A stretch of 64,000 nt of DNA from an uncultured Ruminiclostridium sp. (GTDB taxonomy: Bacteria; Bacillota; Clostridia; Oscillospirales; Ruminococcaceae), in contig CANQED010000009.1 of NCBI GenBank assembly GCA_947594425.1, positions 1-64,000 of the forward strand, written 5' to 3'. The position numbers and the translations under genes are program-made. Numbering within the stretch: position 1 is the first letter of the stretch; each line of letters starts with the position of its first letter. Positions 6,876 to 48,501 of the stretch are shown piece after piece. A model generated the notes under the pieces. The model was given only the letters and a program-made list of their open reading frames with translations, was not told where the DNA came from and did not search any database.

Positions 6876-6891
6876 TAGAAAGGACGGACAG

Positions 6892-31782: not shown

Positions 31783-34700
31783 TGGCTGTCATAAATATTA
31801 AAACCTCCGAAAAAGTAACGCCGCAGTGCTATGCCTATACAACTCCCGGCGTTACATATCACGACGGCTGGACGAAAATCGGCTTTACCGAGCGCGACGT
31901 TGAAACCCGCATAAACGAGCAGACACACACCGCAGGCATTGAACACAAAACGTGGTGGGCAATGCGCGCAGCGTTTATGACCGAGCCTTACGGCACTTTC
32001 ACCGACAAGGATTTTCACGCGTATCTGAAAAAGCTCGGTATCCCCCGCGAGGACGGCACGGAGTGGTTTAAAATCGACCCGAATGACGCTCGCGGAGATT
32101 ATATGGACTTTACGACAAATCACGGAGTTTTGGACGACAATGACGCAGACGCCGTTATTCCGTATAAACTCCGCGAAGAGCAGGCGCAGGCTGTCGAAAA
32201 GACCGCCGAGTATTTTAAAAGCGTACAAAACGCGGAGTTTCTCTGGAACGCAAAGCCACGTTTCGGGAAAACGCTCGCGGCATACGACCTTTGTATGAAA
32301 CTCGGCGCGCAAAATATTCTTATCGTCACAAACCGCCCCGCTATCGCAAATTCGTGGTATGCCGACTATGAAACGTTTATCGGTCCGCAGTCGGGTTATA
32401 TATTTGTCAGCAATGTAGACGGAATAAAGGATAAAAAGTACGTTTACAGCCGTGATGAATATAGAAGGAAAATAAATAAAGACACAAAGGGCTGCATTGA
32501 ATTTGTAAGCTTACAGGATATTAAAGGCTCAATTTACTTCGGCGGGCAGTATGACAAGCTGTCTGAACTTAGCGACAAAAAGGGCATTATATGGGATATT
32601 CTTATCATCGACGAAGCGCACGAGGGCGTTGACACTTACAGAACGGATATTGCCTTTGACCATATCCGCCGCAAGTGGACGCTGCACCTTTCGGGTACGC
32701 CGTTCAAGGCTCTTGCGAATGACAAATTCCCCGAAAGCGCTATCTACAATTGGACTTACGCCGACGAACAGCAGAAGAAACGCGACTGGGATAATTCTGA
32801 CGAATCGGAAAACCCGTATATAAATTTGCCGCGGCTGTCGCTGTTTACATATCAGATGTCGGATATTGTCCGCGACAGGGTTAAAAAGGGCATAGAGCTT
32901 GCGGATAACGATATTGAAGAATTTGCGTTTGATTTGAACGAATTTTTCAAGACAAACGAGAGCGGGAATTTTGTTCACGACAACGACGTAAACAAGTTCC
33001 TTGACGCGCTGACAAAACAGGAGAAATTCCCGTTTTCAACTCCCGAACTCCGCGATGAGTTAAAGCATACGTTCTGGATATTAAACCGCGTTGCAAGCGC
33101 AAAGGCTTTAGCTAAAAAGCTGAAACTGCACCCCGTGTTCAAGGATTATGAAATTATCATTGCGGCAGGCGACGGGAAATTAGATGACGACGACGAAAAC
33201 GAGAAGTCCTTTGACAAGGTTACAAAGGCAATTGCCGAACACGAAAAGACGATAACCCTTTCCGTTGGACAGCTTACAACGGGCGTTACTATCCCCGAAT
33301 GGACGGCGGTGCTTATGCTGTCGAATATGTCAAGCCCCGCGCTTTATATGCAGGCGGCTTTCCGCGCGCAAAATCCGTGCCTGTTCACCGACAAGGACGG
33401 CAACACTTTCAGAAAGCAGAACGCGTATGTTTTCGACTTTGACCCCGCGCGGACGCTTACTATTTTTGAGCAGTTTGCCAACGACTTAATTCCCGAAACT
33501 TCGGGCGACAAGGGCGATTTTGACAGCCGCAGAAACAACGTAAGAGAACTGCTGAACTTCTTCCCCGTGTACGGCGAGGACGATAACGGCGCAATGATCG
33601 AGCTTGACGCGGAAAAGGTATTGACAATTCCGCGCCATATCCACGCAAGAGAGGTTGTGGAGCGCGGGTTTATGTCAAATTTCCTGTTCGCAAATATCAG
33701 CGGAATTTTCGGCGCGCCGAAGGAGATCATCGACATTATCAACAATATGCAGGCTCTTGAACAGCCGAAAACTCTCGCGCCCGCGGATATTGACGAAAGC
33801 ACTAAAGAAAAGCTTTCGCTGAATGATAACGGAGAGGTTGAGGTGTCGAAAGAAAAAATTATAGGTGTGGAAAATCAGCTTTTCGGCGGTAAGGTCTACG
33901 GTGCTATTGAAAATCAATTGACGGCGGCTGTTGAAGATGTTAAAAGCAAGGTTGAACTGACTGAAAAACACAAGAGAGATGAACTCAAAGAACTGCAAAA
34001 AACTTTTGCCGCTCCCATAACGCAAACTCTTATGGATACCGCTATGGAGCAATACGGAAGTGATCTGAAAAAATCTACGCAAAATCACCTTGAGCGGAAG
34101 ATCCAAGATACGACAAACGCTGTTGTAACGCACGAATACGGCAATTATACCATACGCGACCACCAGCTTGCCAAAGAACGTGACGAGAAGATAAAGAAGG
34201 CACAGCAGGCGGGCGCAACAATGGAGGATATTACGAAAATTGATGAAGATTACAGCGAGCGCCGCAAGCAGGGCTACCGCGATATGGTGGACAGTATCAA
34301 CGAGAAGCTTCACAGCGAAGAAACGGTGAAAAAGGCTGCGGAAACAATAGTTGAAACGGTTGAAACCGAAAAGCTGAAAAACAAAAAAGACGAGATCGAG
34401 GGAAATGTGCGCGACCACCTGCGCGGATTTTCAAGAACAATTCCCGCGTTCCTTATGGCGTACGGCGACGAGAATACAACGCTCGCGAATTTTGACAAAC
34501 TCGTGCCGAAAGAAGTGTTCTGGGAGGTTACCGTAAATCCGCAGAACGGGCAAGGCGTAACGCTCGAGCAGTTTTGCCTGTTGCGCGACGGCGGAGATTA
34601 TACAACGGAAAGCGGCGAAGTGCGGCATTTTGACGGGCATTTGTTTGACGAAGTTGTGTTTAACGACGCAGTCGGAGAATTTATGAAAAAACGCGTTGAG

Positions 34701-35159
34701 CTGGCTGATTATTTCAAGCCTGACCGCAAGGGCGATATTTTCGATTATATTCCCCCGCAGCGCACGAACCAGATATTCACTCCCAAAAAGGTTGTAAAGG
34801 ATATGGCAGACAAGTTGGAACAGGAAAACCCGGGCTGTTTTGACGACCCCGATGCGACCTTTGCCGACCTTTATATGAAGTCGGGAATGTATATAACCGA
34901 GATAGTAACGCGCTTGTATCAGAGCAAGCGTATGAAAGAGTTATACCCCGACGACGGCGAGAGGCTTAATCACATTTTCGCAAAGCAGGTGTACGGCTGC
35001 GCTCCTACGGAAATAATATACCGAATTTGCCTGAGGTATGTTTTGGGGTTCAGCGATAAGACCCACATTAACAAACATAATATAAAGCTTTGCGATACGC
35101 TTGAATTTGCCAAGAACGGGACTATGGAAGCAGAGCTGAAAAAGCTTTTTGATATGTGA
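31782..35159 (+). CDS. GIY-YIG nuclease / DEAH helicase / methylase-like fusion
   Basis: A 1125-aa protein, the presumed restriction partner of the methyltransferase it overlaps (TAATG). The N terminus (about 12-100, YAYTTPGVTYHDGWTKIGF and TERDVETRINEQ) is a GIY-YIG-type nuclease of the T5orf172/MUG113 kind. A superfamily 2 helicase follows, with Walker A KPRFGKT near residue 160, DEAH near 275 and a QLTTGVTIPEW segment. A charged coiled region (about 700-870) comes next. The C-terminal 130 residues resemble a DNA methylase (QIFTPKKVVKDM, FADLYMKSGMYITEIV), but the usual DPxxGSG motif I is eroded and there is no NPPY. It is likely an ATP-dependent endonuclease. Confidence 0.8.
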   Translation: MAVINIKTSEKVTPQCYAYTTPGVTYHDGWTKIGFTERDVETRINEQTHTAGIEHKTWWAMRAAFMTEPYGTFTDKDFHAYLKKLGIPREDGTEWFKIDPNDARGDYMDFTTNHGVLDDNDADAVIPYKLREEQAQAVEKTAEYFKSVQNAEFLWNAKPRFGKTLAAYDLCMKLGAQNILIVTNRPAIANSWYADYETFIGPQSGYIFVSNVDGIKDKKYVYSRDEYRRKINKDTKGCIEFVSLQDIKGSIYFGGQYDKLSELSDKKGIIWDILIIDEAHEGVDTYRTDIAFDHIRRKWTLHLSGTPFKALANDKFPESAIYNWTYADEQQKKRDWDNSDESENPYINLPRLSLFTYQMSDIVRDRVKKGIELADNDIEEFAFDLNEFFKTNESGNFVHDNDVNKFLDALTKQEKFPFSTPELRDELKHTFWILNRVASAKALAKKLKLHPVFKDYEIIIAAGDGKLDDDDENEKSFDKVTKAIAEHEKTITLSVGQLTTGVTIPEWTAVLMLSNMSSPALYMQAAFRAQNPCLFTDKDGNTFRKQNAYVFDFDPARTLTIFEQFANDLIPETSGDKGDFDSRRNNVRELLNFFPVYGEDDNGAMIELDAEKVLTIPRHIHAREVVERGFMSNFLFANISGIFGAPKEIIDIINNMQALEQPKTLAPADIDESTKEKLSLNDNGEVEVSKEKIIGVENQLFGGKVYGAIENQLTAAVEDVKSKVELTEKHKRDELKELQKTFAAPITQTLMDTAMEQYGSDLKKSTQNHLERKIQDTTNAVVTHEYGNYTIRDHQLAKERDEKIKKAQQAGATMEDITKIDEDYSERRKQGYRDMVDSINEKLHSEETVKKAAETIVETVETEKLKNKKDEIEGNVRDHLRGFSRTIPAFLMAYGDENTTLANFDKLVPKEVFWEVTVNPQNGQGVTLEQFCLLRDGGDYTTESGEVRHFDGHLFDEVVFNDAVGEFMKKRVELADYFKPDRKGDIFDYIPPQRTNQIFTPKKVVKDMADKLEQENPGCFDDPDATFADLYMKSGMYITEIVTRLYQSKRMKELYPDDGERLNHIFAKQVYGCAPTEIIYRICLRYVLGFSDKTHINKHNIKLCDTLEFAKNGTMEAELKKLFDM

Positions 35160-35233: not shown

Positions 35234-37033
35234 TCATTTAAAGAAGCCTAAATCGGGATTGTCGGGCAGACCGACAATTGAGGCTCTATCAAGGAAACAG
35301 TTAAAGCGTTCGCAAGATGTTTCCGGAAGCAGAGTACAATCATGACAGGCAGCATAATTGAGATTTTTATATCCTTGCTTTTTTGAACAAATACACAAGG
35401 GGTCACTGCTGCACCAGCTTGCTCGCTCAAGCATACTATCCATAATTTCTTCAAATACATCAGGATTATCCGCCACACTGATAAGTCCGCCAAGACTGCT
35501 GTCACTGTCTGATGACGAAACATAAACAAGTACACCGCACATGCCGACTTCGTCATTATCTTTGATCTCACTATATATTTTCTCTCTGATAGAAGCAACG
35601 CTATAGCCGCAGACATTGGATATTTCACGAATGAATAAGTGTGCAAAAGTATGTAACATAACATAGGTTTCAGAAAAAGTATCAAAGGTAAATTTATTGT
35701 CCTCCATTGCTTTCCTCATCATATTATAATGTGAAGAATTAGCCTTTCTCCATTTTGACACTTTATCCTTATTTAATCTTATGAAGATACCTTCTCCCGT
35801 CAGTTCGACCGCCGGCAGCCACGACTTAGGGTATTGAGATATAGCTACGCTGTTCATCTCGTTACGAGTTATTCTGGTAAAGCCGGTAAAAGCCTGAGTA
35901 ACAGTAAGCCTGTCAACTACTGCAATTTGATCAAAATAAGGTTTATACTTTTCAGGAACCGAAGAAGAATATGACGAGAAATTATCTTCATTTTGATTTT
36001 CTTCTTTTGAAAGAACGACATATTCATCTTCAAAAACAGATAATTCCGAGCGCTGCTCTTTGCGCTCCATTGAGTATTTTATCGCATTCCATGAACGCAT
36101 GATCTCGTCATCCGGAATACTATTATCGTCAAGAACCTGCCTTATTGTGTACGCAATATTATCTTTTTCAACAGTTTTTAATATTCTGTAATTTTTTTGA
36201 ATACAATTAGCTACTTTTTTACTCCAAGGCGGGATAAGCAAAGCTGCTTTAGTTATTGGGAAATACACACCTGAAGCAGAGCGCAATCTTGCCCTCATTT
36301 TTTCATGGCAGCCATACTGCGCTCTCGCATAAGAATCCTTAAAGTGTGGGTGCTTACAAGTGCATTTAAACTCCGAGAGGGCATTTTCAGAGAACACCTG
36401 CACCATACTTCTTGTAGCCTTGCATTCGGTACATTCAAGTCTTAGACTATCAATATCTGTTCTGTTATAGATATTTATCATTTTTATTCTCGGAGGCTTA
36501 ACTCCGGACGGACAGGGCTTTCCGTTATGTACCCACCAGTCATAAGGGAAATCATCCATATGCCCCTTAGGACAAACAACAATAAACCGTGAAGCGTTGA
36601 TATTATTGCCACATTGCGGACACTTGTGACGGTTTTTAACATCTAATTCTCGAAAATCATAAATGTTACCGCATCGAGAACAATGAAGCTTTTCGGGAAA
36701 AACATATGAAACAATATTCTTGCCATTAGAAAAGCCGTTAGTACTTCGAGAGGTTCTCGGCATCAAGAAATATTCTGCTCCTGTTATAACCGACAGATTT
36801 TCGTTGTATATTTTTCTGTTTTCAACTTCTTCCATATCATTGGAATTATGATCCCAATCGTCTGTAGAACCTATAACAACAGTATCGTCTTTAAAATCGA
36901 CAATAGAACCGACGCCAAAAGTTGTTATCAGCTGAGTTTTCCGTATATCGCCGACAGAAATCTTTTCACTTGAAAATTTGGAAATAGTCCCGTCGGCGTC
37001 GTTCGCTTTTTTTCTAAATGTAGGCTTTGACAT
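35234..37033 (-). CDS. drmB: DrmB-like DUF1998 zinc-ribbon protein
   Basis: A 599-aa protein. The N-terminal IRKTQLITTFGVGSIVDF is typical of DrmB. Zinc-ribbon pairs follow (CSRCGNIYDF, CPQCGNN, CPKGHMDDFPY, CTECKA, CTCKH, about residues 115-240). The C-terminal DUF1998 region is cysteine-rich (SDPLCICSKKQG, ACHDCTLLPETSCERFNCF, about 540-585). In DISARM, DrmB forms a complex with the helicase DrmA and is needed for phage-DNA handling. It is the last gene of the six-gene operon, 11 bp after DrmA. Confidence 0.82.
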   Translation of the reverse strand: MSKPTFRKKANDADGTISKFSSEKISVGDIRKTQLITTFGVGSIVDFKDDTVVIGSTDDWDHNSNDMEEVENRKIYNENLSVITGAEYFLMPRTSRSTNGFSNGKNIVSYVFPEKLHCSRCGNIYDFRELDVKNRHKCPQCGNNINASRFIVVCPKGHMDDFPYDWWVHNGKPCPSGVKPPRIKMINIYNRTDIDSLRLECTECKATRSMVQVFSENALSEFKCTCKHPHFKDSYARAQYGCHEKMRARLRSASGVYFPITKAALLIPPWSKKVANCIQKNYRILKTVEKDNIAYTIRQVLDDNSIPDDEIMRSWNAIKYSMERKEQRSELSVFEDEYVVLSKEENQNEDNFSSYSSSVPEKYKPYFDQIAVVDRLTVTQAFTGFTRITRNEMNSVAISQYPKSWLPAVELTGEGIFIRLNKDKVSKWRKANSSHYNMMRKAMEDNKFTFDTFSETYVMLHTFAHLFIREISNVCGYSVASIREKIYSEIKDNDEVGMCGVLVYVSSSDSDSSLGGLISVADNPDVFEEIMDSMLERASWCSSDPLCICSKKQGYKNLNYAACHDCTLLPETSCERFNCFLDRASIVGLPDNPDLGFFK

Positions 37034-37044
37034 CTCTTAGCCCC

Positions 37045-40000
37045 CTATCTCTTTACAAAATAAATATTTACTGTCGGCTCAACGTTTCTTACAGAATTAA
37101 GGATCGAGGGTATATCTGAAACGTTCTGATTATCCGCACTGCGGAATAGAGCTACGTCTTCATTATGATAATCCGAAAACACCAATTTATTCGGCAAACT
37201 TTCAGCAAGGTCACTCCAGCTATCCAAATAATAATTTAGCCATTTATCCGCATAATCTGTGATACGGGGTTCTATATCATTGACACGGGCGAGTATACTT
37301 TGCTTAACGCGTTCTACCGCTTCATCGTTCCTGATAAATTTACGAGCATTTTCATTCGGATTATATTTTGGGATAGTATGCCTTATAATAGCCATCATGG
37401 CACAGTGTAAAGCTTTTTCGATCGCGCGAGGAGAATACGAGGTAACACTTGTAGACTCAACGTATTTATAAAACATGCTGTGATAGCGGCAAAACTGCTC
37501 ATAATAAGACTTATCTCTCGATCTCATATTATTGTAGACGGAGATAACAAGACCGGGGTTTGTTCTTCCGACACGGCTTGTAGCTTGGATATACTCTGAA
37601 TTGGATTTTGGCTGACCATAGACACACATAACTCCGAGCCTGTCGATATCTATGCCGACAGACAACATATTTGAAGCCATAATATAATCAAAGCAATTGT
37701 CACTCGTGTATCTATTTGCAAGTCTTTCAAGAACCGACTTGATTTCCTTAGCCGAATTACGGCTTGTAAGCTCATTATTTCTGAAATATGACGGTATATC
37801 GGCATTAGCACAATCGACTTTCAAATTTACGCTTTCAGCTTCTTTTCTGAACTTATAGGCTGCAAGATACTTTATCTCCGCATTGATACGATCTGATATT
37901 ATTATTGAATTTGAACCAAGCTCTTTCAGCGAATTGAAGTAACCCACATATGTATAGAACTGATCTATAATATCCGTCGGCTTGCCTTGCAGCCTGTATA
38001 AATGCTTCATAAAAGTCAATAAGGCAAAGGTCTTTATGAGCATTTCAGATGTTCCCGAGCCAATAGAACAAACTCCGAGATAAGTTCTTGCAGGACGTTT
38101 AGACTCATCAGCTTCGATAGCAAAAAACGAATCGGTGTGTAATAATCCGTTAGGTGGAAACTGTATCATATTTCTATTGTATAGTATCTTTATTTGTTTG
38201 GCGGCATTCTTTACAGTTGCGGTCGATGCAATTATCTTAGGGACTTTTCCGTAATGTCTGCATATATTCTCAATAGCTATTTCGTATATGCCTGTGATAG
38301 AGCCAAGCGGACCCGAGATAAGATGAAGCTCGTCCTGTATAATGAGCTCGGGCGGGTTACAACCGTTCGCGCCGAGCAAATTTCCCGCCTGTTCTTCCCA
38401 AGTTATTCTTGCAAATTTATCTACAGTACTTAGGATAAATGTCGGTGCCATACGATAAATGTCATCATCAACTACATAGATAGGTAAATGACTATGAAAT
38501 TCGCATTCGGGATTATTGCAACAGGAAATATTCATTCCGTCGCTTATGATTTCGTATCCGCCTACATCGATCCGGGCACCGCACCAAGGACATTTGGTGA
38601 TCTGCATAGGATTTGCATCATATATTGCAGCAGTTGAGTCCTCACGGATTTTCTTTAACGTTTCAGAAGCATCTTCAATATGGTTAGGCGTCATTCCCGA
38701 ACCTATCCACAATCCTATGGAAATCTCGCGCCCCGGAATATCGTACTTATTTCTCATATGTTCACAAGCGCAGACAAGGGCTGTTGCTCTTTCAAACTGT
38801 TGAAGCGTAAGAAGACGCAAAGTGTACCTCATAATAATAGTAACACCATTCATTTTTTTATCATCACCGCTTAGCCTTCTAAAAAATATAGAAAACGCAG
38901 ACAGACCGAGGTATGCCTCTGTTTTACCGCCGCCTGTAGGGAACCACAGAAGATCGACATAGTTACGAAATTCAGAAGTATCATCGACAATATCGGGTAT
39001 TATTTGAAGGATATAAGCCATCTGAAACGGATACCAACTTACTATATCGGGAGAACAATGCTTTGTTTTAACACGCTGTAAAAGCATAGCTTCGTTCATA
39101 TAAACAAACGATTTCCAAGCAATATCATTATTTTTGAGTATTTCTACACCAGTGCAAAGACGGTTAATGCATTGCTTGATCATTGCAAAAGATCCGGAGG
39201 AAGCATCCGGATATTTAGCGATAAGCTCGGATTTCTTATTAAGTTCGGCATACCACTGCCGATACTGCATAATAAAGTCATCGAGCATATAACAAGCCGC
39301 ACTTCTATCAGCTTCTCTCCAATATTTCATATAAAGATATTCCGAATTGTCCAATAATCTCGGCATCATCTGTAACATTCTATATTGCGGAACAAACTCA
39401 CTCCTCACTTCTGTTACAATACCTTGATTTTCAATGTGAACAGACGAACAGCCGTGACCTTGAGAATAATTGTTTACACAATCATAGAGCATATCGTTTT
39501 TTTCGTCTTCAAAAGTTTTATGCGTTTTTCTTCCGTATATAGGCACAAATCCTTGACCGCTCTTAATGGACAGTACACACTGAAACAATGCGCCTTCGTT
39601 GACTTCTATAAAATGGGTCCCTGCTTTGCGCTTGTTAAGAACAGACACCGTTACAAGCTCACTGCTGTCATTATTGATCTTTCTAACATGTAAATATAGG
39701 ATTATATCGCCGTTTTCCTTTCCGGAAATTATTTTATTACACACTTCATTCGGAACAATAACATTTGTATGAAATTTTTTAGCTTCTCTTGTATAATAAT
39801 GTCTTTTTACTTCCTTGTCATTATCTGTTATCATCTTTTCCGAATGATGATATACGGCATAAATAAAGTCGATATTCAATATTTCGTTCGAGTACACCAC
39901 AAAAGAAACGCCCATAGTTGACGGCTTAAAAACACTAATATCCTTAGGCTCTTCGCTGTCGTTCGATATATCTTCAAACATTTCTTCCTCAGCGCTATCC

Positions 40001-40179
40001 ATATCGTTTGGTTCAGATTCTTTGCTCTTCGGTCGTGCCCAAAGAATCCCAAGTGAATAACGACTTAACGGCTCCTCCATTTCTAATTCTTCTTTATCCT
40101 CAATCGGACCGATAAAATCGGTTCTGAGATGATCTGTAATATCATCTATCGCGCTATAAAACTCAGAATAGTTCGACAT
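37045..40179 (-). CDS. drmA: DrmA-like superfamily 2 helicase
   Basis: A 1044-aa protein with the DrmA N-terminal pattern (LRTDFIGP, PLSRYSLGILWARP). The helicase core has Walker A FPTGGGKTEAY (about residue 413), a zinc ribbon insert (CPWC, CCNNPEC, about 530-555), a DELH box in IQDELHLISGPLGS (about 617) and C-terminal ASNMLSVGIDIDRLGVM and QATSRVGRTNPG. DrmA is the DNA-loading helicase of DISARM. The start at 40179 follows the upstream stop by 4 bp and has AAGAAGTG before it; the longer frame overlaps the upstream gene. Confidence 0.85.
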   Translation of the reverse strand: MSNYSEFYSAIDDITDHLRTDFIGPIEDKEELEMEEPLSRYSLGILWARPKSKESEPNDMDSAEEEMFEDISNDSEEPKDISVFKPSTMGVSFVVYSNEILNIDFIYAVYHHSEKMITDNDKEVKRHYYTREAKKFHTNVIVPNEVCNKIISGKENGDIILYLHVRKINNDSSELVTVSVLNKRKAGTHFIEVNEGALFQCVLSIKSGQGFVPIYGRKTHKTFEDEKNDMLYDCVNNYSQGHGCSSVHIENQGIVTEVRSEFVPQYRMLQMMPRLLDNSEYLYMKYWREADRSAACYMLDDFIMQYRQWYAELNKKSELIAKYPDASSGSFAMIKQCINRLCTGVEILKNNDIAWKSFVYMNEAMLLQRVKTKHCSPDIVSWYPFQMAYILQIIPDIVDDTSEFRNYVDLLWFPTGGGKTEAYLGLSAFSIFFRRLSGDDKKMNGVTIIMRYTLRLLTLQQFERATALVCACEHMRNKYDIPGREISIGLWIGSGMTPNHIEDASETLKKIREDSTAAIYDANPMQITKCPWCGARIDVGGYEIISDGMNISCCNNPECEFHSHLPIYVVDDDIYRMAPTFILSTVDKFARITWEEQAGNLLGANGCNPPELIIQDELHLISGPLGSITGIYEIAIENICRHYGKVPKIIASTATVKNAAKQIKILYNRNMIQFPPNGLLHTDSFFAIEADESKRPARTYLGVCSIGSGTSEMLIKTFALLTFMKHLYRLQGKPTDIIDQFYTYVGYFNSLKELGSNSIIISDRINAEIKYLAAYKFRKEAESVNLKVDCANADIPSYFRNNELTSRNSAKEIKSVLERLANRYTSDNCFDYIMASNMLSVGIDIDRLGVMCVYGQPKSNSEYIQATSRVGRTNPGLVISVYNNMRSRDKSYYEQFCRYHSMFYKYVESTSVTSYSPRAIEKALHCAMMAIIRHTIPKYNPNENARKFIRNDEAVERVKQSILARVNDIEPRITDYADKWLNYYLDSWSDLAESLPNKLVFSDYHNEDVALFRSADNQNVSDIPSILNSVRNVEPTVNIYFVKR

Positions 40180-40183
40180 ATCA

Positions 40184-42505
40184 TCACTTCTTTTCAAATA
40201 CAAGTTTAGCAAGTCCCGTTAATTGAATACCAAAGCACATCCTTGATTTTTGATACTCATTCGGAACATTTTCGCTGAATTGTTTCAGTATTTCTGTAGT
40301 AATACCGCTAACATAGAGGTTTTCTAATCTGTCGGGAAGATTCTTCTTATAGTCCGTTAACCTTATACCGGCTTCAAGTTCGTCAACAATTTTTTGTGAA
40401 AAACAGCCTATATAGCGGTCTTTATGAAATATTTCGTACAGCTTGGTAGTAGGTGAACGCTTAGCCGTCAGCTTGTCATACAACCTAATATTATGAATGA
40501 TATACTCCTGTAAATCAAGTATTGTATTGAACTCTCCGGCCACAAACGAATTATTATCAATATCTCCGGTCAATCCCACAGTTATGCACTTGCAATACCG
40601 ATCACTTGTTTTATATACATTATACAGTCCCGTTTCAATCACCCTTCCCGACATAGTACGTTTAAAATACTTCGAGTTTTTCTTCATAGTAATAAACTGC
40701 GTCTTGGGACGAGTCAGTGCGACATATCGCACTCTCGCTTCTTCTGCGCTGTCGGGAGAAGGCTTAATATATGATTCGATAAGAATTACTCTATCAAATT
40801 CACTACCTTTTGCCTTATGTATGGTTGAAACAGTCAGCATAGGTGCTTCATCATAAAGCTCGGAAGGAATATTATTGGTTATAGTAAGAGCGGAAGTCAA
40901 AGCCGGAATGCTTATTTCAGCATTATCTTTTGATTTTGAAAGTTTACACAAAAGTTTCCAAAGTGTTTCGGGATCCGATTTTAACTCAGTCCTTAAAACC
41001 AATCTCTCAATAAAGGCGGCTTTGCTTATAGTATCAAGGCAATAATCCCAAAATACATCTGCTATCCAACGAGGAAGCGGCTGAACGTTATTAACGCCCC
41101 TGTTTAGAATGTGAACGATGCCTTTCTCGCATAACAATCCGCTGATATACTCAGCCTCGCCGTTATTTCGGCAGAGAATGGCTGTAGAAACAGTCGGCGC
41201 TTTCTCAAGCGTTTTTATGTACGATTCGATCTTTATTCCTCCTGAAAAGTGCGATATTACACTGTCAGCATACTTGTTCTGATCTTTAAAAGTGTCATTA
41301 AGCAACACTTTACGCATTTTTGCAGCCTCTTCAGCAAGCTCGGGAGCTTGTCTTCTGTTGACAGTAATTTCGTATCGGAGCATATCATCCGGAAACTGCA
41401 TCTCAGCCTTTTTGTAAAATTCTACAGAATCAACTGTCGCATCTTCATCAGCTTCATAGTCATAGATCGACTGACAGCGGTCTCCCGCAAGCAAGTAGCC
41501 GCATTTAAGATTATTCAATATTTTTAGGACCATCTCGGCACGTTCGTTCACAAGGTCCTGTATTTCATCAACTATAAAGTAGCTGACGCCCTCAAAATCT
41601 TCAGCAGAAATATATTTATTGAACAATTTAATACGGTCGTTGTATTCATAACTCTCAAATTGCTCTTTAACAATTCCCTGTTCTTTCATAGCCATAAGAA
41701 AATATGTAGCATACGAGTCAAATGTCAGCACACAGATGCTTTTTGCAGACGGCTCGATCATGCCGTTATCAACAGCCTGTGCTATCTTACTTTCGATGAT
41801 TCTCTTTGCTGAACGGGTATAACATAAGATGTATATTTCATCTGCGGGGCACAGATTATTTTTTAGAAGATAAATTAAGCGCTGAATGATAGTGTATGTT
41901 TTTCCTGTTCCCGGTCCCGAATTAAGTATAATGTGAGAATTCAGCGGTGCCGTAATGATGCGATCGGGTGTGGTTATTTCAATATACCGTTTATTAATTT
42001 CGCGAATTTCTTCAACAGTATGTTCTTTAGGAGCGAAATATTCTTTTGAGCTTTCCTCAACCTTAATTGTGTTTTTATCTCTTTCAAACACAACGTTATC
42101 ATCTTGTATTATTATCCCGAGAGATTCTAAGAACTCCTTTAAACTTTTTTTCTCCTCGGTTTCATCCTCCGCCGCAGGTTCACGAGTAACAGCTTTAGGG
42201 ACACAGCCATCAAATCCGGGACATTCAACATATTCGCATCTGCTTTGCCAGCAAAGGACGCCGTCTATCATCACCGGTCCAAATGACATTTCGCCATTTT
42301 TAGCCAATGAACATATTTGGTTTCCGGACAATATTCGTTCCTGAACTTCATTTAAAGCGATAGACGCAAGTCCCACATAATTCTGACGAATATTTTTTAG
42401 CAGTTTAGCTCCTGTTATCTTACCGGTGTATTTTTTATCCTTTGTGATATCGCGATTACTTCTTATGTAAATATTTGAAACTATACTGATATTAGATCCA
42501 TTCAT
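40184..42505 (-). CDS. UvrD/Rep-like superfamily 1 helicase
   Basis: A 773-aa protein. The N-terminal domain (about 1-150) has a cysteine group CEYVECPGFDGC (about 89-100) that could bind metal. The SF1A core then shows Walker A SGPGTGKT (about 197), YTRSAKRIIESKI, Walker B FIVDEIQDL (about 312), LLAGDRCQSIYDY, STIHKAKGSEFDRVIL and VRYVALTRPKTQF. It should translocate on single-stranded DNA with ATP. It is not part of canonical DISARM, but lies 5 bp from both its neighbours, between the Hsp70-like and DrmA genes. Confidence 0.88.
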   Translation of the reverse strand: MNGSNISIVSNIYIRSNRDITKDKKYTGKITGAKLLKNIRQNYVGLASIALNEVQERILSGNQICSLAKNGEMSFGPVMIDGVLCWQSRCEYVECPGFDGCVPKAVTREPAAEDETEEKKSLKEFLESLGIIIQDDNVVFERDKNTIKVEESSKEYFAPKEHTVEEIREINKRYIEITTPDRIITAPLNSHIILNSGPGTGKTYTIIQRLIYLLKNNLCPADEIYILCYTRSAKRIIESKIAQAVDNGMIEPSAKSICVLTFDSYATYFLMAMKEQGIVKEQFESYEYNDRIKLFNKYISAEDFEGVSYFIVDEIQDLVNERAEMVLKILNNLKCGYLLAGDRCQSIYDYEADEDATVDSVEFYKKAEMQFPDDMLRYEITVNRRQAPELAEEAAKMRKVLLNDTFKDQNKYADSVISHFSGGIKIESYIKTLEKAPTVSTAILCRNNGEAEYISGLLCEKGIVHILNRGVNNVQPLPRWIADVFWDYCLDTISKAAFIERLVLRTELKSDPETLWKLLCKLSKSKDNAEISIPALTSALTITNNIPSELYDEAPMLTVSTIHKAKGSEFDRVILIESYIKPSPDSAEEARVRYVALTRPKTQFITMKKNSKYFKRTMSGRVIETGLYNVYKTSDRYCKCITVGLTGDIDNNSFVAGEFNTILDLQEYIIHNIRLYDKLTAKRSPTTKLYEIFHKDRYIGCFSQKIVDELEAGIRLTDYKKNLPDRLENLYVSGITTEILKQFSENVPNEYQKSRMCFGIQLTGLAKLVFEKK

Positions 42506-42510
42506 AATAA

Positions 42511-43950
42511 TTAATCCTCGATATCTTTCAAATCATAATAAAATCTGAGCTTATTGATTTCATGATGAACATGATAGTCAGAGCCCATATAGTCGTTTTT
42601 TATGTCGACTTTAGCTATTTGGTCTTTTCCTATTTCTACCGATAAATCGAACTTCTCATCTACGAACCCTTTAGCGTTTACCGATATAACAGCATAACGG
42701 TTTTTACCTGTAGAATCGGTAAATATAAAATGTGCATCATAAGAATCGGCAGTCAAAGAGAATGAGATAGGGTCGCTTTTATCTCCGACCTTGTTTTTAT
42801 CTTTCTTCAAAACAGGGTAAACTTCCCCATCACTCAACAAAACACAAATATCATCACCAAGTCTGTAATCACAATCTATCGCAGATGTTATAGCCGCTCC
42901 CTTAGCAACGATCCACTGATACCGATTATTCTCATTGTCAAAAATGATTTTATCCTCGCCAAACAATGAAAGGATAATATCCGCAAACGGTCTTAATCCG
43001 CTTGAACCGCCCGCAAGGATAACAGTGTCTATATTTTCGGGGCTGACATTAGCTTTCTCCATTATTTTTAGAATGGAATTAAGCACGTTTTCGGTAATTA
43101 GCGGGGTGATTATATCCGAGAACGTATCATAATCTATGTCAACCGGTCGGGACCCCTCTCCTAAAGTCATAGTATAATCATCGTATTCGGAAAATTCGAT
43201 TTTCATACGCTCCACTTCATTCATGAGCTTGTCTTTTTTGCGTGATTCAAGCTCCTCATAGGATACACCGGGATAAACTTTAGGCATCAATCTTAGAGCA
43301 AGCTCTTTATCTATATCGTCGCCGCCGAATTTTATACCATAAACAGCATCCTCAAAAACACAGTTATGTTTAAGATCAAGTATACTCAAATCAAGCGTAC
43401 CGCCGCCGAAATCAATAACCATAACTTTAGAAAACGCCTTAATATCCTTGACTTTTGAGATATAAGCGGCTGAGGACTCACTTACAAAGCCTTTAACCTT
43501 AATGCCCGCAAGCTCCGCTGCTTCTAATAATTCTGTTCTTGCTTTAGCGGAAAAATCAACAGGGATAGAGAATACCGCTTTATTAAAATCAGGTCTTACG
43601 GCATCTAATGTATTCTTAACATATTTCAAAAAAAGGTACACTAATACTTTTCCGTTGTATCTTACGTTATTTACTGCGATTTCGTGATCAGTTCCGAGAA
43701 GCGACTTAAACGATGTAACGATCTTATAATCGTCAGCATATTCGTTTATTTTTTCCTTGACCTCACGACCGTATTTAATATCATTATCAGCCGTCTTCGA
43801 TATTGCTATACAAGAACTAAACGGAGTAATATCTTTTCCGTCTGTACCGTATCCGGCTTCTCGTGAACCCTTTCCCTGTTCATAATTATACAAGTAGACC
43901 GATGTATTTGTCGTTCCAAAATCGATGCCGTAATATGATCCGTTTTTCAT
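42511..43950 (-). CDS. Hsp70/DnaK-like ATPase, short form
   Basis: A 479-aa actin-fold ATPase. Phosphate 1 YYGIDFGTTNTSVYLY (about residue 7), the VFSIPVDFS segment, connect SESSAAYIS, phosphate 2 MVIDFGGGTLDLSIL and the adenosine motif ILAGGSSGLRPF are all present. After the ATPase domain (about 1-375) only about 100 residues follow, so the peptide-binding domain is diverged and the helical lid is missing. A defence-dedicated chaperone or a nucleotide-controlled switch is the likely role. Its ATG shares one base with the stop of the coiled-coil gene, suggesting strict co-expression. Confidence 0.88.
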   Translation of the reverse strand: MKNGSYYGIDFGTTNTSVYLYNYEQGKGSREAGYGTDGKDITPFSSCIAISKTADNDIKYGREVKEKINEYADDYKIVTSFKSLLGTDHEIAVNNVRYNGKVLVYLFLKYVKNTLDAVRPDFNKAVFSIPVDFSAKARTELLEAAELAGIKVKGFVSESSAAYISKVKDIKAFSKVMVIDFGGGTLDLSILDLKHNCVFEDAVYGIKFGGDDIDKELALRLMPKVYPGVSYEELESRKKDKLMNEVERMKIEFSEYDDYTMTLGEGSRPVDIDYDTFSDIITPLITENVLNSILKIMEKANVSPENIDTVILAGGSSGLRPFADIILSLFGEDKIIFDNENNRYQWIVAKGAAITSAIDCDYRLGDDICVLLSDGEVYPVLKKDKNKVGDKSDPISFSLTADSYDAHFIFTDSTGKNRYAVISVNAKGFVDEKFDLSVEIGKDQIAKVDIKNDYMGSDYHVHHEINKLRFYYDLKDIED

Positions 43951-45326
43951 TAGTTATTCCCCTTAAAGTCTATTCCGTTTCTTTCCAACGAGCGGAAAAT
44001 CTTTTTTATAATAGCCTGTAAAGACTCATAATTCTCCTCACTAACATCCGAAAACTCATATTCAAGCCAATCTTCGTATAAAAAAGCAAACGCCTTTTTA
44101 AGTTCTGAACGCACCTTCTCTGCTTCAAGCGATGACTCGCGGCTGTTTATCTTATACACGTCATTCAGCTTGTTGTCAAGGTCCGAAATCTGACTTTCAA
44201 GAGATAAAATCCTGCTTTTAAGTTCATCATTTTCGGTTTTGGCAGCCATTAAAGATTGATTTACAGCTTGGTATTCGGCTTTCTGTTCAAATAACCGATC
44301 CTCTAAATGAGCGATTTTAGCTTTTAATGATTCATTCTCGATGCCTATTTCGCGGCTCTTATTTATCTCGCCTTTAATGGATTCAAGCATCTTGCCGATA
44401 GGTGAGATCATACCGGTAAAAGCTGTTATTATCGCTTCCTGCTCTTTATTTATATCACTTTTTATGCTTTCATATATCGCTTTATCGGTGCTCTTTCTTG
44501 TATGTGCTTTATCTAAAGCAGTTGGTGGGTCGGAATTATCTTTAGATGATGTATCAGCCTTTATATCTAAAGCGGACAAGGGTTTATCTGCTGATGCCGA
44601 ATTTTTCTTTTTGACAGGTTTGCCTGCTTCGGTCAGCTCTTGTTTAGAAACAACAGATCGCTCTATATTAGCCGAACTATCCTGTTTAACAGAAGCATCG
44701 ACACCCATAGTTTTGATAATACCGTATTTCTTACCCCATTCGGTGATAAGATGTTCGTATTTCGCTTTCGTTAGATCCGGATAAATGCTGTTTATTACAT
44801 TCCATATGTTTATCAAGGACTTTTTGCTTATATTTGAATAATCAAGCAGGAAAATCTCTCCTGCGCTGTTATTGATAAGATTATAAAATTTACTTTTATT
44901 TCTGTCGGATTTAGCAGCAAAGCCGGCTATAAACTCAACCAACTTCGGCAGAATAGAAGAATGATAAGATTCCTCCTTATAACATTTTATTGTTGAAACA
45001 ATAGCGGGCGCAAATTTAGAAACATAGTATTGGGATAATTTTGCTTCGGTGTCGGTTGCAAGAAATTCACTCAATATATCTTCTACAGCGTGTAAAGGCA
45101 GCGTCTTGACTTTCGTAAGATCTTCAAAAAAACGTACGGAAACTTCCGCCGAAAATCTTGCAAGCTCGACCGCAACATCATGCAGACTTCCGTCTTTTGA
45201 TAACATAATGTCCGTAACAAGCTGAGCCACAGCTTTAGTTTTTCCGCCATTTAATGTATTCTTATTATCTTTATATTCTTGATAATAGTTATCAAGCTGT
45301 ACTTTAATCTCATTTAAATTTCCCAT
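43950..45326 (-). CDS. coiled-coil protein partnered with the Hsp70-like ATPase
   Basis: A 458-aa cytoplasmic protein without a recognisable enzyme domain. Residues about 1-205 are helical, about 206-280 are Lys/Ser/Asp-rich and likely disordered, and about 300-400 are a long heptad coiled coil (ESLKAKIAHLEDRLFEQK, LESQISDLDNKLNDVY). The last 55 residues (KKAFAFLYEDWLEYEF on) form a small helical domain. The coiled coil plus small C-terminal domain, translationally coupled to an Hsp70, suggests a GrpE-like exchange factor or scaffold; this is inference. The start at 45326 has GAGGAG upstream; the longer frame's GTG falls in that site. Confidence 0.7.
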   Translation of the reverse strand: MGNLNEIKVQLDNYYQEYKDNKNTLNGGKTKAVAQLVTDIMLSKDGSLHDVAVELARFSAEVSVRFFEDLTKVKTLPLHAVEDILSEFLATDTEAKLSQYYVSKFAPAIVSTIKCYKEESYHSSILPKLVEFIAGFAAKSDRNKSKFYNLINNSAGEIFLLDYSNISKKSLINIWNVINSIYPDLTKAKYEHLITEWGKKYGIIKTMGVDASVKQDSSANIERSVVSKQELTEAGKPVKKKNSASADKPLSALDIKADTSSKDNSDPPTALDKAHTRKSTDKAIYESIKSDINKEQEAIITAFTGMISPIGKMLESIKGEINKSREIGIENESLKAKIAHLEDRLFEQKAEYQAVNQSLMAAKTENDELKSRILSLESQISDLDNKLNDVYKINSRESSLEAEKVRSELKKAFAFLYEDWLEYEFSDVSEENYESLQAIIKKIFRSLERNGIDFKGNN

Positions 45327-45337
45327 TATAAATCTCC

Positions 45338-48211
45338 TCACCGACTAATAATAGTTATCATATCATCATCTATCTGACAATATCTTTTTACCGCTGATGT
45401 AATCGTCTGTAAATCAGAAAGCGTGGAAACGGCTGTTATCTGTAATCCGTTGGACAACCTGTTACAACCGTCTACAGGCACCGGCTTTCGATAAAAAACG
45501 CTGTTTCCATGCAGCAGAATATCTTGTTCGTTCATACGCGCCATTTTAAACGGCTTGCAGTTGATAGAAAACTCACATACCTTATTCAACGCATCGGAAT
45601 AATCGTAAGCCCTGATCACATTTCCGTTAAGCCTAAGAATAACATTTCTTGCGTCAGAGTCTTCTTTCGGCGGCTCATACTCAACGGTCTTTGTAATTGG
45701 AGTTTCTGCAGCATTTTTCATTGGATCTTTTGTATAATCTTCAGCTTTATCAGAAGCTCCTACAGATGCTTCGGTTTTTTTCTCGGCCCGGACAAGAGTA
45801 TAATAGCCGTCCTCCGTCCCACAAAGCTCAGAGCACCCGGACATTAACGCTTCGATCTCATCTTCTGACACATTAGTGTAGCCCTTATGAGAAAGCAGCG
45901 ACTTTACTTCATATGCTCCAAATCCATCCTCATATTGCAGAGCATCTATGTTTTCGTTGATCACTTCAATAATTGCATCTATTGTCAACGCCGCGCCATT
46001 TTTGGGATCAAAAGTACAATCTGCTGTTGGTTCTTCGTGTATAAAGACAGGAGAAGCTGTATGAACAGGTTCGGAAATAATATCCTCAGACCGGTTATTT
46101 TCAATGTTCTCAGGCTCGACGTCCTGTTGGGAGATCAATGCTTTGTTCACAATATAGCAGCCTTTGCCTACCAACTGAAACCTTTTATCCACCAACAGGA
46201 TCTTAGCCATTTCAAACAAGTCTATTGTTTTTCCGTAATACTTTTTGATAAGCTCACGGAGGTTCTTTGTAGAAATACCGCCCTTATGCTCGCAATATTT
46301 AGTAACCTCGGGCGCATCGGTTAGCAATATTTCGACCAGAGCATCACCCAAGACAAACGGTTTTACGGTGTTTGGAGTGAAAAGAACAGATGCAGGAGAA
46401 TTTTCAGCATTTATGCTTGGATCCTTTGCCCGGGTCAATTCTTGATCATAATCAAGATCAATCTTTTGTTCAGAAGTCGAAATTTCGGAAGGCGGCTTAA
46501 GGTCGGCTGTTACATCATCATTATAACCATCAGGCAAAACAATTTCATTATCTTCTTCCTGTGCGGAATATTTTATGATCATTTGTTCATCGCCAATAGA
46601 GCAAAGCTCCATCAAACATTTGATATGCTTGATTATATCAGCAGCAGATAAGTTGCCTTCTGCAAAGAAATTTTCAGATACTCTTATCGGTCTGCGCAAT
46701 TTATTGCTATTACTTTTATCGGTAAAATCAATGCGATGACCGTATATTGACCTTCCGTTCAAGCTTTTTATTATGTCGGAATATGTATTATCAGCATATA
46801 GCAGGATAAGAAATTGTTTATATAAATCAAACCAGCTTTTCACAGAATATTGCCGTTCGTTAAAAATAAACACACACGGCTTATAGTAAGTGCAGTTATG
46901 AGGATTTTCAAAATCCACTGTTTTAACAATATAAGGCAGCGTACTTACGGGCGGCTGATAATGCTTCTTATCTGATGTATTTTTAAGCCCTAAAACAGAA
47001 ATATCGGCAAATTGGGCGAACTTACTTAAAGATATGCTAAAGCCGTTATGCCTTCGATCGTTAGCGTCTATATACTCGCTTCTCTTAATAAGCGCCTCTA
47101 TTATAATTGCGGCATTATCTGTAGATGTCGCACCGAGAATATTTTGCCTTATGCCAAAAATGTTTTGGTATAGTTTTTCTATGCTATGTATGTTTGATAT
47201 ATATTGCTTAGCTGTCGTGTCGGTCAAGCCACCCACAGATACGAGCCAGTCAAAGAATGCCTGTTCCGTTAGCTGAGGTCGGTCAGGTAAAACGTCAGTC
47301 TCAAGTTCCGGCGTTATATCCGAAACAAATTGAGTGTCATCATATTCATAGGCTGATACATTTGCTTCTTCTTGAGCAGATTTTTTCTTTTCAGCGTCAT
47401 GATTATTAAGGAGCGGCGTATTTATTTGTGCGGTTATATCGACATAATCTTGAGCAACATCGATAAGGGATACTAAAAGCTCATCATATAGGCGAAATCT
47501 CTTTCTTCTTTCACGAATTTCACTCTGTACACGATGGTATTCTTCCTCATCATCAATATCGAGAGATCCATTATACGCTTTTTGTATCTTCTTCAAGACG
47601 TCACTAATATCCGTCTGCAATTTATTGAGATAAATATCTGTATACTCTTTAGTGATTGGAATAATGCTGTCTGCATTCGGCTTAATTGCATGGTTTTGAA
47701 TGACATCTTTTGAGCATAAAAGCAACTTTTGTACTAATCGAGCCCTATCCAACACTGATAATAATTCTTCAACATTAACCTTGTCAGAATAAATAAATGT
47801 AAGATATTCTTTTGTTGTTTGATCATAAACATTAACTATATTCTGAACAAAACCGAGGATATCGGATTCTATTTCTTCCTCTTTGCGGCATACCAATTCG
47901 CAATTAATTTTAACTATAAGTTTTGGCGTTTCAGGATCGAGGTCTGCTTTTAATATATCAACAGAAAAAGCATATCTTCCACTATCTATTGCTTGAGCAT
48001 ATAAGTAAGCATAGCTTTTGGGAAGAAAGCCGAGTTCTTCCCCATCATCGGTAACTAATATGACGGCATTGTGATCATAAGGATTGTCGTTTTGATGTTT
48101 AAGTATAAGAGTTTTTTGAAAAAGCTCAGGCCGTAAATTAAATGCGAGATCTTCATATTGCGCTACGACTATCTCTATTACAGTTTCGCTTTGTATATCA
48201 ATATCGTTCAT
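45338..48211 (-). CDS. HIRAN-domain multidomain protein
   Basis: A 957-aa protein, first gene of the operon. A HIRAN domain (about residues 15-95: LKHQNDNPYDHNAVILV, GEELGFLPKSYAYLYAQ) recognises DNA ends or stalled forks in other proteins. Then come a charged helical region, a segment like the core-binding domain of tyrosine recombinases (AFFDWLVSVGGLTDTTAKQY, about 313-350) without any recombinase catalytic part, and two winged-helix-like segments (about 640-690 and 765-800). The C terminus is unassigned. It probably senses DNA and recruits the helicases. The start at 48211 has GAAAGG upstream; an upstream ATG at 48253 coincides with the predicted transcription start. Confidence 0.75.
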   Translation of the reverse strand: MNDIDIQSETVIEIVVAQYEDLAFNLRPELFQKTLILKHQNDNPYDHNAVILVTDDGEELGFLPKSYAYLYAQAIDSGRYAFSVDILKADLDPETPKLIVKINCELVCRKEEEIESDILGFVQNIVNVYDQTTKEYLTFIYSDKVNVEELLSVLDRARLVQKLLLCSKDVIQNHAIKPNADSIIPITKEYTDIYLNKLQTDISDVLKKIQKAYNGSLDIDDEEEYHRVQSEIRERRKRFRLYDELLVSLIDVAQDYVDITAQINTPLLNNHDAEKKKSAQEEANVSAYEYDDTQFVSDITPELETDVLPDRPQLTEQAFFDWLVSVGGLTDTTAKQYISNIHSIEKLYQNIFGIRQNILGATSTDNAAIIIEALIKRSEYIDANDRRHNGFSISLSKFAQFADISVLGLKNTSDKKHYQPPVSTLPYIVKTVDFENPHNCTYYKPCVFIFNERQYSVKSWFDLYKQFLILLYADNTYSDIIKSLNGRSIYGHRIDFTDKSNSNKLRRPIRVSENFFAEGNLSAADIIKHIKCLMELCSIGDEQMIIKYSAQEEDNEIVLPDGYNDDVTADLKPPSEISTSEQKIDLDYDQELTRAKDPSINAENSPASVLFTPNTVKPFVLGDALVEILLTDAPEVTKYCEHKGGISTKNLRELIKKYYGKTIDLFEMAKILLVDKRFQLVGKGCYIVNKALISQQDVEPENIENNRSEDIISEPVHTASPVFIHEEPTADCTFDPKNGAALTIDAIIEVINENIDALQYEDGFGAYEVKSLLSHKGYTNVSEDEIEALMSGCSELCGTEDGYYTLVRAEKKTEASVGASDKAEDYTKDPMKNAAETPITKTVEYEPPKEDSDARNVILRLNGNVIRAYDYSDALNKVCEFSINCKPFKMARMNEQDILLHGNSVFYRKPVPVDGCNRLSNGLQITAVSTLSDLQTITSAVKRYCQIDDDMITIISR

Positions 48212-48259
48212 ATTATCAAACCTTTCGACAAAAAAGTCATCCGAATTACACATGCTTGT

Positions 48260-48288
48260 ATTATACCACATTTTTACTAAAATATCAA
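48260..48288 (-). promoter_or_regulatory. promoter of the six-gene operon
   Basis: Minus strand TTGATA (48283-48288), 17-bp spacer, TATAAT (48260-48265), 49 bp before the HIRAN gene start. Confidence 0.8.
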
Positions 48289-48308
48289 TAGCTCGTGTCA
48301 TTTTTCGT

Positions 48309-48361
48309 CTGTAAAAATACAATATTTGTTTACAGTTTTAAAGTTTTGAAATCACTGTAAA
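48309..48361. promoter_or_regulatory. three TTTACAG/CTGTAAA boxes upstream of the operon
   Basis: CTGTAAA at 48309-48315, TTTACAG at 48329-48335 and CTGTAAA at 48355-48361. The last two extend to a perfect 9-bp inverted repeat, GTTTACAGT (48328-48336) and ACTGTAAAC (48354-48362). They lie just upstream of the -35, a plausible activator or repressor site. Confidence 0.55.
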
Positions 48362-48415: not shown

Positions 48416-48495
48416 ACACCGTCCACGAGATGGCTAAGGACGAGGCAAGACACGGAAAGGCATTCGAGGGGTTGCTTAAGAGGTATTTTAAGTAA
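48416..48495 (+). pseudogene. rubrerythrin 3' fragment
   Basis: The last 26 codons and stop of a rubrerythrin gene, with one base different from the intact copy at 29047. There is no start or upstream coding sequence. It marks the right edge of the island. Confidence 0.85.
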
Positions 48496-48501
48496 TACTT
48501 A
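48416..48501 (+). repeat. right direct repeat of the island
   Basis: Matches 29519-29604 at 85 of 86 bases, in the same orientation. Confidence 0.9.

Follow-up and report, generated by a model that had tools for sequence, protein, structure and literature searches.

The window, a 64,000-nucleotide stretch of DNA from an uncultured, gut-type Ruminiclostridium sp. (GenBank assembly GCA_947594425.1, contig CANQED010000009.1, positions 1 to 64,000), carries six co-directional open reading frames (ORFs) on the minus strand between 35234 and 48211. In transcription order, they encode a HIRAN-domain protein, a coiled-coil protein, an Hsp70-type ATPase, a UvrD-like helicase, DrmA, and DrmB, with intergenic gaps of 11, -1, 5, 4, and 11 bp (Table 1). 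A first-pass annotation made from the sequence alone had described these genes, their order, gaps of at most 11 bp, and a one-base overlap between the coiled-coil and Hsp70 genes. All six ORFs lie where it placed them, and the overlap is present. The last five genes form a constant core that recurs in other genomes, and the set is very probably a DISARM-like defense system.

Table 1. Features of the operon and of the island around it, with the evidence for each
Feature	Positions	Strand	Evidence
HIRAN protein, 957 aa	45338..48211	-	PF08797 4.7e-8
Coiled-coil protein, 458 aa	43950..45326	-	ORF; AlphaFold model; directly upstream of Hsp70 in 46/46 testable relatives
Hsp70-type ATPase, 479 aa	42511..43950	-	PF00012 1.8e-24; best PDB match DnaK 5obu 1e-22
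UvrD-like superfamily 1 helicase, 773 aa	40184..42505	-	PF00580 6.1e-21; PF13361 3.7e-15
DrmA, YprA-family helicase, 1044 aa	37045..40179	-	PADLOC DrmA 1.6e-217; PDB 7s9v
DrmB (DUF1998/MrfA Zn-binding), 599 aa	35234..37033	-	NCBIfam DrmB_fam; PF09369; PADLOC DrmB
Promoter-like site TTGATA-17-TATAAT, upstream of operon	48260..48288	-	Consensus match only
86-bp direct repeat, left copy, the 3' end of the rubrerythrin gene (29047-29598)	29519..29604	+	Repeat comparison
86-bp direct repeat, right copy, island boundary	48416..48501	+	85/86 identical
Eco57I-type DNA methyltransferase, convergent neighbor	29794..31782	+	PF07669 2.5e-18; PADLOC MTase_II 3.9e-103
GIY-YIG-like (MUG113)-ResIII helicase	31782..35159	+	PF04851 1.3e-13; PF13455 1.9e-5

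The start of the operon differs from the first description, which had put its end at 48322. That coordinate is merely the end of the longest TTG-initiated ORF for the HIRAN gene, and the ATG at 48211 is favored as the start because a promoter-like match falls inside the extension. The single promoter proposed ahead of the set has a candidate in this match, which agrees with the consensus at 11 of 12 positions, has a TG ahead of the -10 element, and reads from 48288 to 48260. The site is no more than a consensus match, and four such sites occur in that 500-bp region against 1.6 expected in shuffled sequence.

Recurrence of the gene set

GTDB species genomes were scanned with an alignment of four DrmA proteins (from the window, L007, L015, and L017), which gave 264 relatives, and the best 80 loci (L020-L099) were examined. 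Neighborhoods were annotated with the window proteins, BLAST clusters, and family hidden Markov models, most flanking genes without a profile scan. UvrD lies directly before DrmA in 72 of the 80 loci; it is absent from five, and three are untestable. An Hsp70 of the window's family is present in 49 of the 80 and directly precedes UvrD in every one; it is absent from 18, and 13 are untestable owing to a contig cut or the lack of UvrD. When any Hsp70-family ORF was counted independently of the position of UvrD, the result was again 49/80, each directly ahead of UvrD. Among the Hsp70 loci, the coiled-coil gene stands directly upstream of Hsp70 in 46/46 testable cases (three are cut by contig ends), and DrmB follows DrmA in 45/45 (four are cut). 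No coiled-coil gene without Hsp70 was found among the 80 loci. Core gaps, measured on the longest ORFs, fall between -30 and +20 bp in 170 of 195 instances.

Failure of the accessory genes to co-occur with drmAB in other genomes had been set beforehand as the refuting test of the first-pass proposal. The counts for Hsp70-UvrD, coiled-coil, and DrmB run the other way, and the refutation fails. These genes form a genuine unit that recurs across genomes, with a constant core of coiled-coil, Hsp70, UvrD, DrmA, and DrmB. A few entries are duplicates: L015 (genome G373) is the same contig as L059, L194 (G714) is the same contig as L024, and L021 and L022 have identical DrmA proteins. A reverse search from Hsp70 across 398 genomes of the phylum (E ≤ 1e-30) recovered the window's own genome and six others, all six with a UvrD-type ORF directly after Hsp70. 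DrmA comes next in G373 and G327, and the G370 locus is cut by a contig end. Genome G008 (L007), from the window's order, has a similar set with a first gene only partly alike and a split UvrD gene; an ORF that reads as an IS200/IS605-type transposase (L007, 10127-10585) splits the latter.

Two of the core proteins were also tried as search queries. Across the order, the coiled-coil protein as a single query found only its own genome and one distant relative among 295 genomes; it diverges too fast to serve as a search handle. An Hsp70 profile matched 375 of 391 genomes of the class, swamped by DnaK-like proteins, with the window's own genome at 632.7 bits and the next best at 221.2. Against plasmids, tblastn with Hsp70 returned 92 records, all with query coverage under 80%; those listed, 30 in number, are at 24-29% identity, and the annotated ones are named DnaK, HscC, or Hsp70 family.

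The core genes also appear to share their history. Distance matrices of the five proteins (39-48 loci) correlate in all ten pairs, with r from 0.921 to 0.978, and 0 of 999 permutations gave values as high. DrmA-DrmB reaches 0.978 and Hsp70-DrmA 0.975, so diversification is coupled across the core roughly as closely as between DrmA and DrmB. A DrmA tree (short search, midpoint root) was built from 81 rows, comprising 78 of the 80 loci plus the window, L007, and L017; L054 and L078, whose DrmA frames are split or short, and L015 were excluded. All 52 Hsp70 rows fall inside one 65-row branch with a Shimodaira-Hasegawa-like approximate likelihood ratio support of 100. By record label, the 49 hosts comprise 41 Bacillota and two each of Synergistota, Bacteroidota, Actinomycetota, and Melainabacteria, many of them metagenome-assembled genomes. 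The DrmA of the Bacteroides-labelled L045 is almost identical to that of L007, which suggests transfer or a binning error.

Proteins of the operon and the island around it

The Hsp70 family spans 468-518 residues in 51 sequences (L015 included). Residues D10, K82, E158, D180, T185, and D187 are conserved at 96-100%, and a wider set (D10, G12, T13, K82, E158, D180, GGGT at 182-185, D187, and G314-G315-S316) at 94-100%. We take these to be the counterparts of the phosphate-binding and catalytic residues of DnaK. The protein is apparently an active ATPase and is predicted to consist of a nucleotide-binding domain followed by a short, substrate-binding-like C-terminal region that would leave no space for a lid. 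Both this protein and the coiled-coil protein gave only marginal PADLOC matches (0.004 and 0.0048).

The AlphaFold model of the coiled-coil protein (mean predicted local distance difference test score, pLDDT, 84.6) has a helical head (1-200), a disordered linker (about 205-278), a 146-residue helix (279-424), and a C-terminal helix (430-449). Foldseek returned no match at E ≤ 0.001, and another fold search gave helical-repeat matches only, with middling Z scores. GrpE was found neither among the 50 matches listed per fold search nor in the 25 of 270 Pfam families listed. A direct hhalign comparison with GrpE gave a weak match of 26% probability over only 16 columns (reversed control, 1.2%). 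Second, divergent GrpE homologs occur in addition to the normal GrpE in two other genomes (G306:C18:34601-35020, 83 bits; G312:C13:15233-15643, 66 bits).

UvrD has an N-terminal four-cysteine site (C65, C90, C95, and C101), which together with Walker A and B is at least 92% conserved in 49 sequences; its best PADLOC match is GajB (4.8e-22). DrmA scores 891.9 bits against the NCBIfam model DISARM_DrmAS, under the equivalog cut-off of 950. Among PDB entries, it matches DISARM DrmA (7s9v) at 464 bits versus a weak 21.9 bits for YprA. DrmB scores 461 bits against DrmB_fam (cut-off 240) and 24.9 bits against PF09369 (cut-off 24.2), and matches PADLOC DrmB at 9.8e-83.

The first gene is variable. 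In the window, its product has an N-terminal HIRAN domain (PF08797, 33.2 bits, cut-off 24.7). The top fold matches in the PDB are 3k2y (E 2.3e-4) and the HLTF HIRAN structures 4s0n, 6kcs, and 4xzg (E 1.3e-3 to 5.7e-3), DNA-bound HLTF HIRAN included. AlphaFold modeled the whole protein with low confidence (mean pLDDT 68.5), and only the HIRAN domain gives a clear fold match. The remainder may comprise a helical region, a SAM-like segment, an alpha/beta module seemingly recurring at the C-terminus, and two winged-helix-like modules. Across the 49 Hsp70 loci, the first gene is a relative of the window type in 14 and a remote relative in three (17/47 testable), belongs to another family of about 1000 residues in four, and is cut in two; none was recognized in 26, a class into which a diverged gene may fall. 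The earlier proposal had counted HIRAN as part of the system's set, a place these figures do not grant it: the first gene lies outside the conserved core.

Beyond what was first described, a repeat-bracketed island is now identified around the operon. The pair of 86-bp repeats encloses 18.8 kb of AT-rich DNA that holds the operon and a convergent methyltransferase/helicase pair. These eight genes are the large ORFs inside, and no recombinase was recognized among them. The G+C content is 38% in the operon, 45% in the methyltransferase/helicase pair, and 51% in the outer flanks. Comparison with 16 close loci, several with little flank of their own, gave no blastn match to the window flanks. DrmA is sporadic, occurring in four of 119 relatives, own genome included. 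No empty site was seen in the contigs of relatives G181 and G714 that carry the right flank, which are short and end near the junction.

Similar brackets occur elsewhere. In L049, a 35-bp repeat (4384-4418 and 16858-16892) encloses a small helix-turn-helix-like ORF and an operon running from the coiled-coil gene to a NERD helicase gene, one copy lying at the start of a gene that reads as spoVT-like. In L020, a 48-bp repeat brackets the six genes; this case is weak, since the repeat adjoins a dispersed one that partly recurs elsewhere in the locus. Among the 49 Hsp70 loci (37 with at least 300 bp on both sides), shared flank 20-mers were found in L020, L049, and L071, in the last far from its operon. 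A cross-locus control gave shared 20-mers in one of 756 pairs, but it is blind to repeats scattered through a single genome. Both in the window and in L049, the operon resembles cargo transferred as a single piece.

Relation to known systems and possible mechanism

The closest known systems include DISARM, whose gating and restriction are understood as tied to DNA structure and methylation. The likeness lies in adjacent DrmA and DrmB genes, an AT-rich island, and restriction genes near some relatives. DrmA agrees with DISARM by PADLOC and PDB matches, though it falls under the NCBIfam equivalog cut-off, and DrmB agrees as well. At 1044 residues, this DrmA is shorter than the solved Serratia DrmA of 1325. 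Where DISARM has DrmC, DrmD (class 1) or DrmE (class 2), and a methyltransferase, the present set has a constant UvrD, Hsp70, and coiled-coil protein instead. No match to DrmC, a phospholipase D (PLD) family nuclease, was listed for the eight island proteins (for UvrD, among the best 25 of 35 PADLOC matches), and genome-wide PLDc_2 appears only in one 715-aa frame on contig C7. Neither DrmMI nor DrmMII is among the six operon genes, and a C5 methylase occurs only on contig C13. DrmD and DrmE gave no PADLOC or NCBIfam match to the eight island proteins (for UvrD, within the best 25 of 35 PADLOC matches), in a search that did not extend to the rest of the genome. The first-pass statement that DrmC, DrmD, and DrmE are missing from the set therefore stands for the island. 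Because DrmC, the methyltransferase, and DrmD/DrmE were not found, the operon is not DISARM by membership.

The operon could still be an ordinary DISARM system with passengers, in which DrmAB does the work, a methyltransferase and a nuclease come from elsewhere, and Hsp70, the coiled-coil protein, and UvrD are accessory. The DISARM profile matches of DrmA and DrmB fit this account, as does the finding that DrmC appears non-essential for DISARM activity (PMC9142583). C5-methyltransferase genes also lie in the flanks of nine of the 49 Hsp70 loci, two of them with EcoRII and Vsr. However, the extra genes are constant and co-diversify about as strongly as DrmA with DrmB. Moreover, 40 of the 49 loci have no C5-methyltransferase cluster member in the fetched flanks, and no member of the DrmC-type PLD cluster was recognized near any of the 49. 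We consider this account unlikely.

ARMADA type II (ArmABCD) is similar in pairing a YprA-family helicase with a GajB-like UvrD helicase, and its protection is lost when Walker A of either helicase is altered (PMC12458937). ARMADA also has a BrxHII-like SNF2 helicase and a PglX-like methyltransferase, neither of which is among the six proteins here. Its YprA homolog is fused to OB-CON-DUF1998, whereas DrmA and DrmB here are separate ORFs, as in DISARM. Hsp70 and HIRAN have zero occurrences in the ARMADA text (PMC12458937). Druantia and Dpd share a YprA-family helicase with a DUF1998 region; otherwise, only weak DpdJ matches of DrmA are listed. The YprA family includes repair branches (PMC12458937), which raises the idea of a DNA-repair operon like MrfAB/YprA with no role in defense. 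We regard this as the least probable account of those weighed here. DrmA is closest in the PDB to DISARM DrmA and only weakly like YprA. Furthermore, the operon is sporadic, AT-rich, repeat-bracketed, common to distant hosts, and beside restriction genes in some relatives.

CoCoNuT type III systems offer a more general likeness, as their CnuD is an Hsp70-like protein with nucleotide- and substrate-binding domains encoded in a defense operon with coiled-coils and HEAT-like repeats (PMC11090510). These systems are predicted to target RNA (PMC11090510), and by analogy the present Hsp70 would bring the complex to phage RNA or ribosomes. This is highly improbable, if marginally less so than the repair account. 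CoCoNuTs are McrBC-type systems with RNases and a reportedly degenerate CnuD Walker A (PMC11090510), whereas the Hsp70 catalytic residues are conserved here, beside DrmAB-UvrD. No McrB-like GTPase (CnuB), McrC (CnuC), or HEPN match was found among the six proteins, and DISARM DrmAB acts on DNA.

A literature search combining Hsp70 or DnaK with DISARM, DrmA, DrmB, DUF1998, UvrD, and YprA, which did not extend to supplements and most subscription papers, found no description of the set. Among the nearest works is the CoCoNuT study, which covers Hsp70-like proteins as well as a DISARM-like cassette next to McrBC (PMC11090510). The Figure 1 legend of the 2025 ARMADA preprint mentions a DISARM-like clade with many uncharacterized DISARM-like classes (PMC12458937), and the present helicase branch may therefore already stand undescribed in that tree. 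The claim of distinctness from named systems was borne out in the literature searched and the PADLOC 2023 release, in neither of which a named system with this set was found. On the best reading, the operon is a variant of the YprA/DrmAB kind that shares its DrmAB core with DISARM.

The system probably shares the DNA-targeting logic of DISARM. In the Serratia DrmAB complex, a trigger loop of DrmA imposes auto-inhibition, and 5'-overhang DNA activates the complex (PMC9142583). We infer antiphage function, complex formation, and the gating and recognition roles, the gating of UvrD-DrmAB with a first-gene reader resting on DISARM, ARMADA, and chaperone-sensing precedents and on protein anatomy. 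DrmAB would be a DNA-engaging helicase complex, as in DISARM, and UvrD with its four-cysteine site would act as a second motor on the same DNA. The Hsp70 ATPase and the coiled-coil protein would act as a switch, powered by ATP, for loading, releasing, or de-repressing both helicases upon a phage-associated signal. We hold this gate role tentatively, at slightly less than even confidence. The exchangeable first gene, here with HIRAN and winged-helix-like modules, would supply a subunit that recognizes DNA ends or junctions, and the HIRAN protein as a DNA-end reader is a somewhat more tentative proposal than the gate. The damage to phage DNA could come from its being blocked or unwound, from a host nuclease recruited to it, or from the NERD-nuclease helicase that follows DrmB in some relatives. 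Taken as a whole, a horizontally acquired, DISARM-like operon for defense against mobile DNA, with Hsp70/coiled-coil gating of UvrD-DrmAB, is our best explanation, and its chances of being right or wrong seem evenly balanced.

Hsp70 might instead be the infection sensor itself, its substrate-binding region capturing a phage-encoded polypeptide or J-domain-like protein and its ATPase cycle, with the coiled-coil protein, licensing UvrD-DrmAB. Chaperone-mediated sensing has a precedent in bNACHT25, which needs DnaJ to detect the MS2 coat protein (PMC12169576). The conserved catalytic residues, a short C-terminal region with no room for a lid, and the invariable position directly before UvrD are consistent with such a role. 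However, a peptide ligand has no direct evidence, and the CoCoNuT authors propose RNA binding for their Hsp70s (PMC11090510). A sensor of this kind is unlikely, to about the same degree as a DISARM system with passengers.

Several observations weigh against the gated-helicase explanation. The 65-row DrmA branch also contains eight rows with UvrD but no Hsp70 directly upstream, together with five untestable rows, so DrmAB-UvrD may work without Hsp70 unless another first gene substitutes for it. At least nine changes of the Hsp70 label are required on the tree, which indicates frequent loss or replacement. In the reverse search, three of the six Hsp70 loci have no recognized DrmA: an opposite-strand ORF comes next in G402, G457 has another defense core, and G644 is the third. 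The G457 locus (L018, 485-17376) places a coiled-coil/Hsp70/UvrD triad next to SspB-, SspC-, and SspD/BrxP-like genes, a PLD protein resembling DrmC, and another UvrD. The triad may serve this phosphorothioation-type system, which has no recognized DrmAB. The frequencies of Hsp70 linkage are conditional, because the search alignment was built from Hsp70-linked DrmA members and the best 80 of 264 relatives were kept. A Pfam HIRAN domain (E ≤ 0.01) is present in only six of the 16 first-gene family members scanned, window included; most relatives lack the domain, including most of that family, so HIRAN is not a general recruiter. The C-terminal pattern of the coiled-coil protein is suggestive of a GrpE-like exchange factor, but the idea is weak by profile comparison and gains no support from fold searches. 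No nuclease was recognized in the window operon, which leaves the damaging step without an assigned gene, and we know of no phage assay for any member.

A broader view is more speculative and, in our judgment, somewhat doubtful. The operon may belong to a widespread, unnamed immune class in which a chaperone-type Hsp70 is the activation switch, and perhaps the sensor, of a two-helicase DISARM-like effector, with chaperone gating in place of methylation-based self-recognition and a modular sensor slot. That slot would be filled by Hsp70 and the coiled-coil protein in most Bacillota loci, by a TmtA-like protein joining sacsin(GHKL) and helicase parts in relatives that are mostly actinobacterial, and in some loci by still others; elsewhere, that Hsp70 triad would stand beside a phosphorothioation system. 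If true, chaperone ATPases can form part of the core of DNA-targeting immunity. The branch lacks DrmC and the customary methyltransferase and retains instead an Hsp70 that is apparently active, a coiled-coil partner, and a second helicase, which sharpens the question of whether Hsp70 ATP hydrolysis gates a defense helicase. The recurrence also yields search profiles for loci that DrmA and DrmB profiles alone would label as partial DISARM.

Variable genes around the core

Inside the window's island, the convergent methyltransferase and GIY-YIG-like helicase genes share one base and resemble a split type IIG-like restriction pair. They are unlikely members of the operon's system: no relative of either was found at E ≤ 1e-3 in the 87 loci searched, and they are judged a separate system. 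It is unlikely that the Eco57I-type methyltransferase serves the operon.

Among relatives, the two loci with EcoRII and Vsr beside a C5-methyltransferase are L064 and L080; C5-methyltransferase and PLD genes in the flanks were assigned by BLAST cluster. The DrmC-type PLD cluster occurs only in L082, L092, L094, and L096, all without Hsp70 found, and L094 alone was scanned against the PADLOC DrmC models. In L085, L086, L088-L091, and L095 (Actinomycetota and one Acidobacteriota), a protein of 1536-1640 residues lies directly before UvrD-DrmA-DrmB in the slot expected for Hsp70. The L085 protein, the only one profiled, resembles TmtA; its N-terminus is of the sacsin type, and it includes a helicase. 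The UvrD proteins of L060, L066, and L069 are 1578-1716 residues long with no Hsp70 upstream, and their first 940-1060 or so residues are unmatched by the UvrD model; in L060, this part has no Pfam or PADLOC match. In L077, a 410-aa protein (6358-7590) with a weak ZorC/EH-signature match (2.9e-4) replaces Hsp70 before UvrD.

Downstream of the core, a NERD-nuclease and UvrD-type helicase directly follows DrmB in 10 of the 45 testable Hsp70 loci. It resembles the NERD-UvrD helicases of DRT and candidate systems (PADLOC RTasNERD-Hel and C3a187), and that of L057 matches RTasNERD-Hel at 1.1e-41. Neither the window nor any of the Ruminococcus loci L020-L033 was found to have it. A 29-kb IMG/VR contig (L135) carries the coiled-coil, Hsp70, UvrD, DrmA, and DrmB genes together with a NERD helicase, and in L061 a reverse transcriptase gene (15014-17125) lies directly after DrmB.

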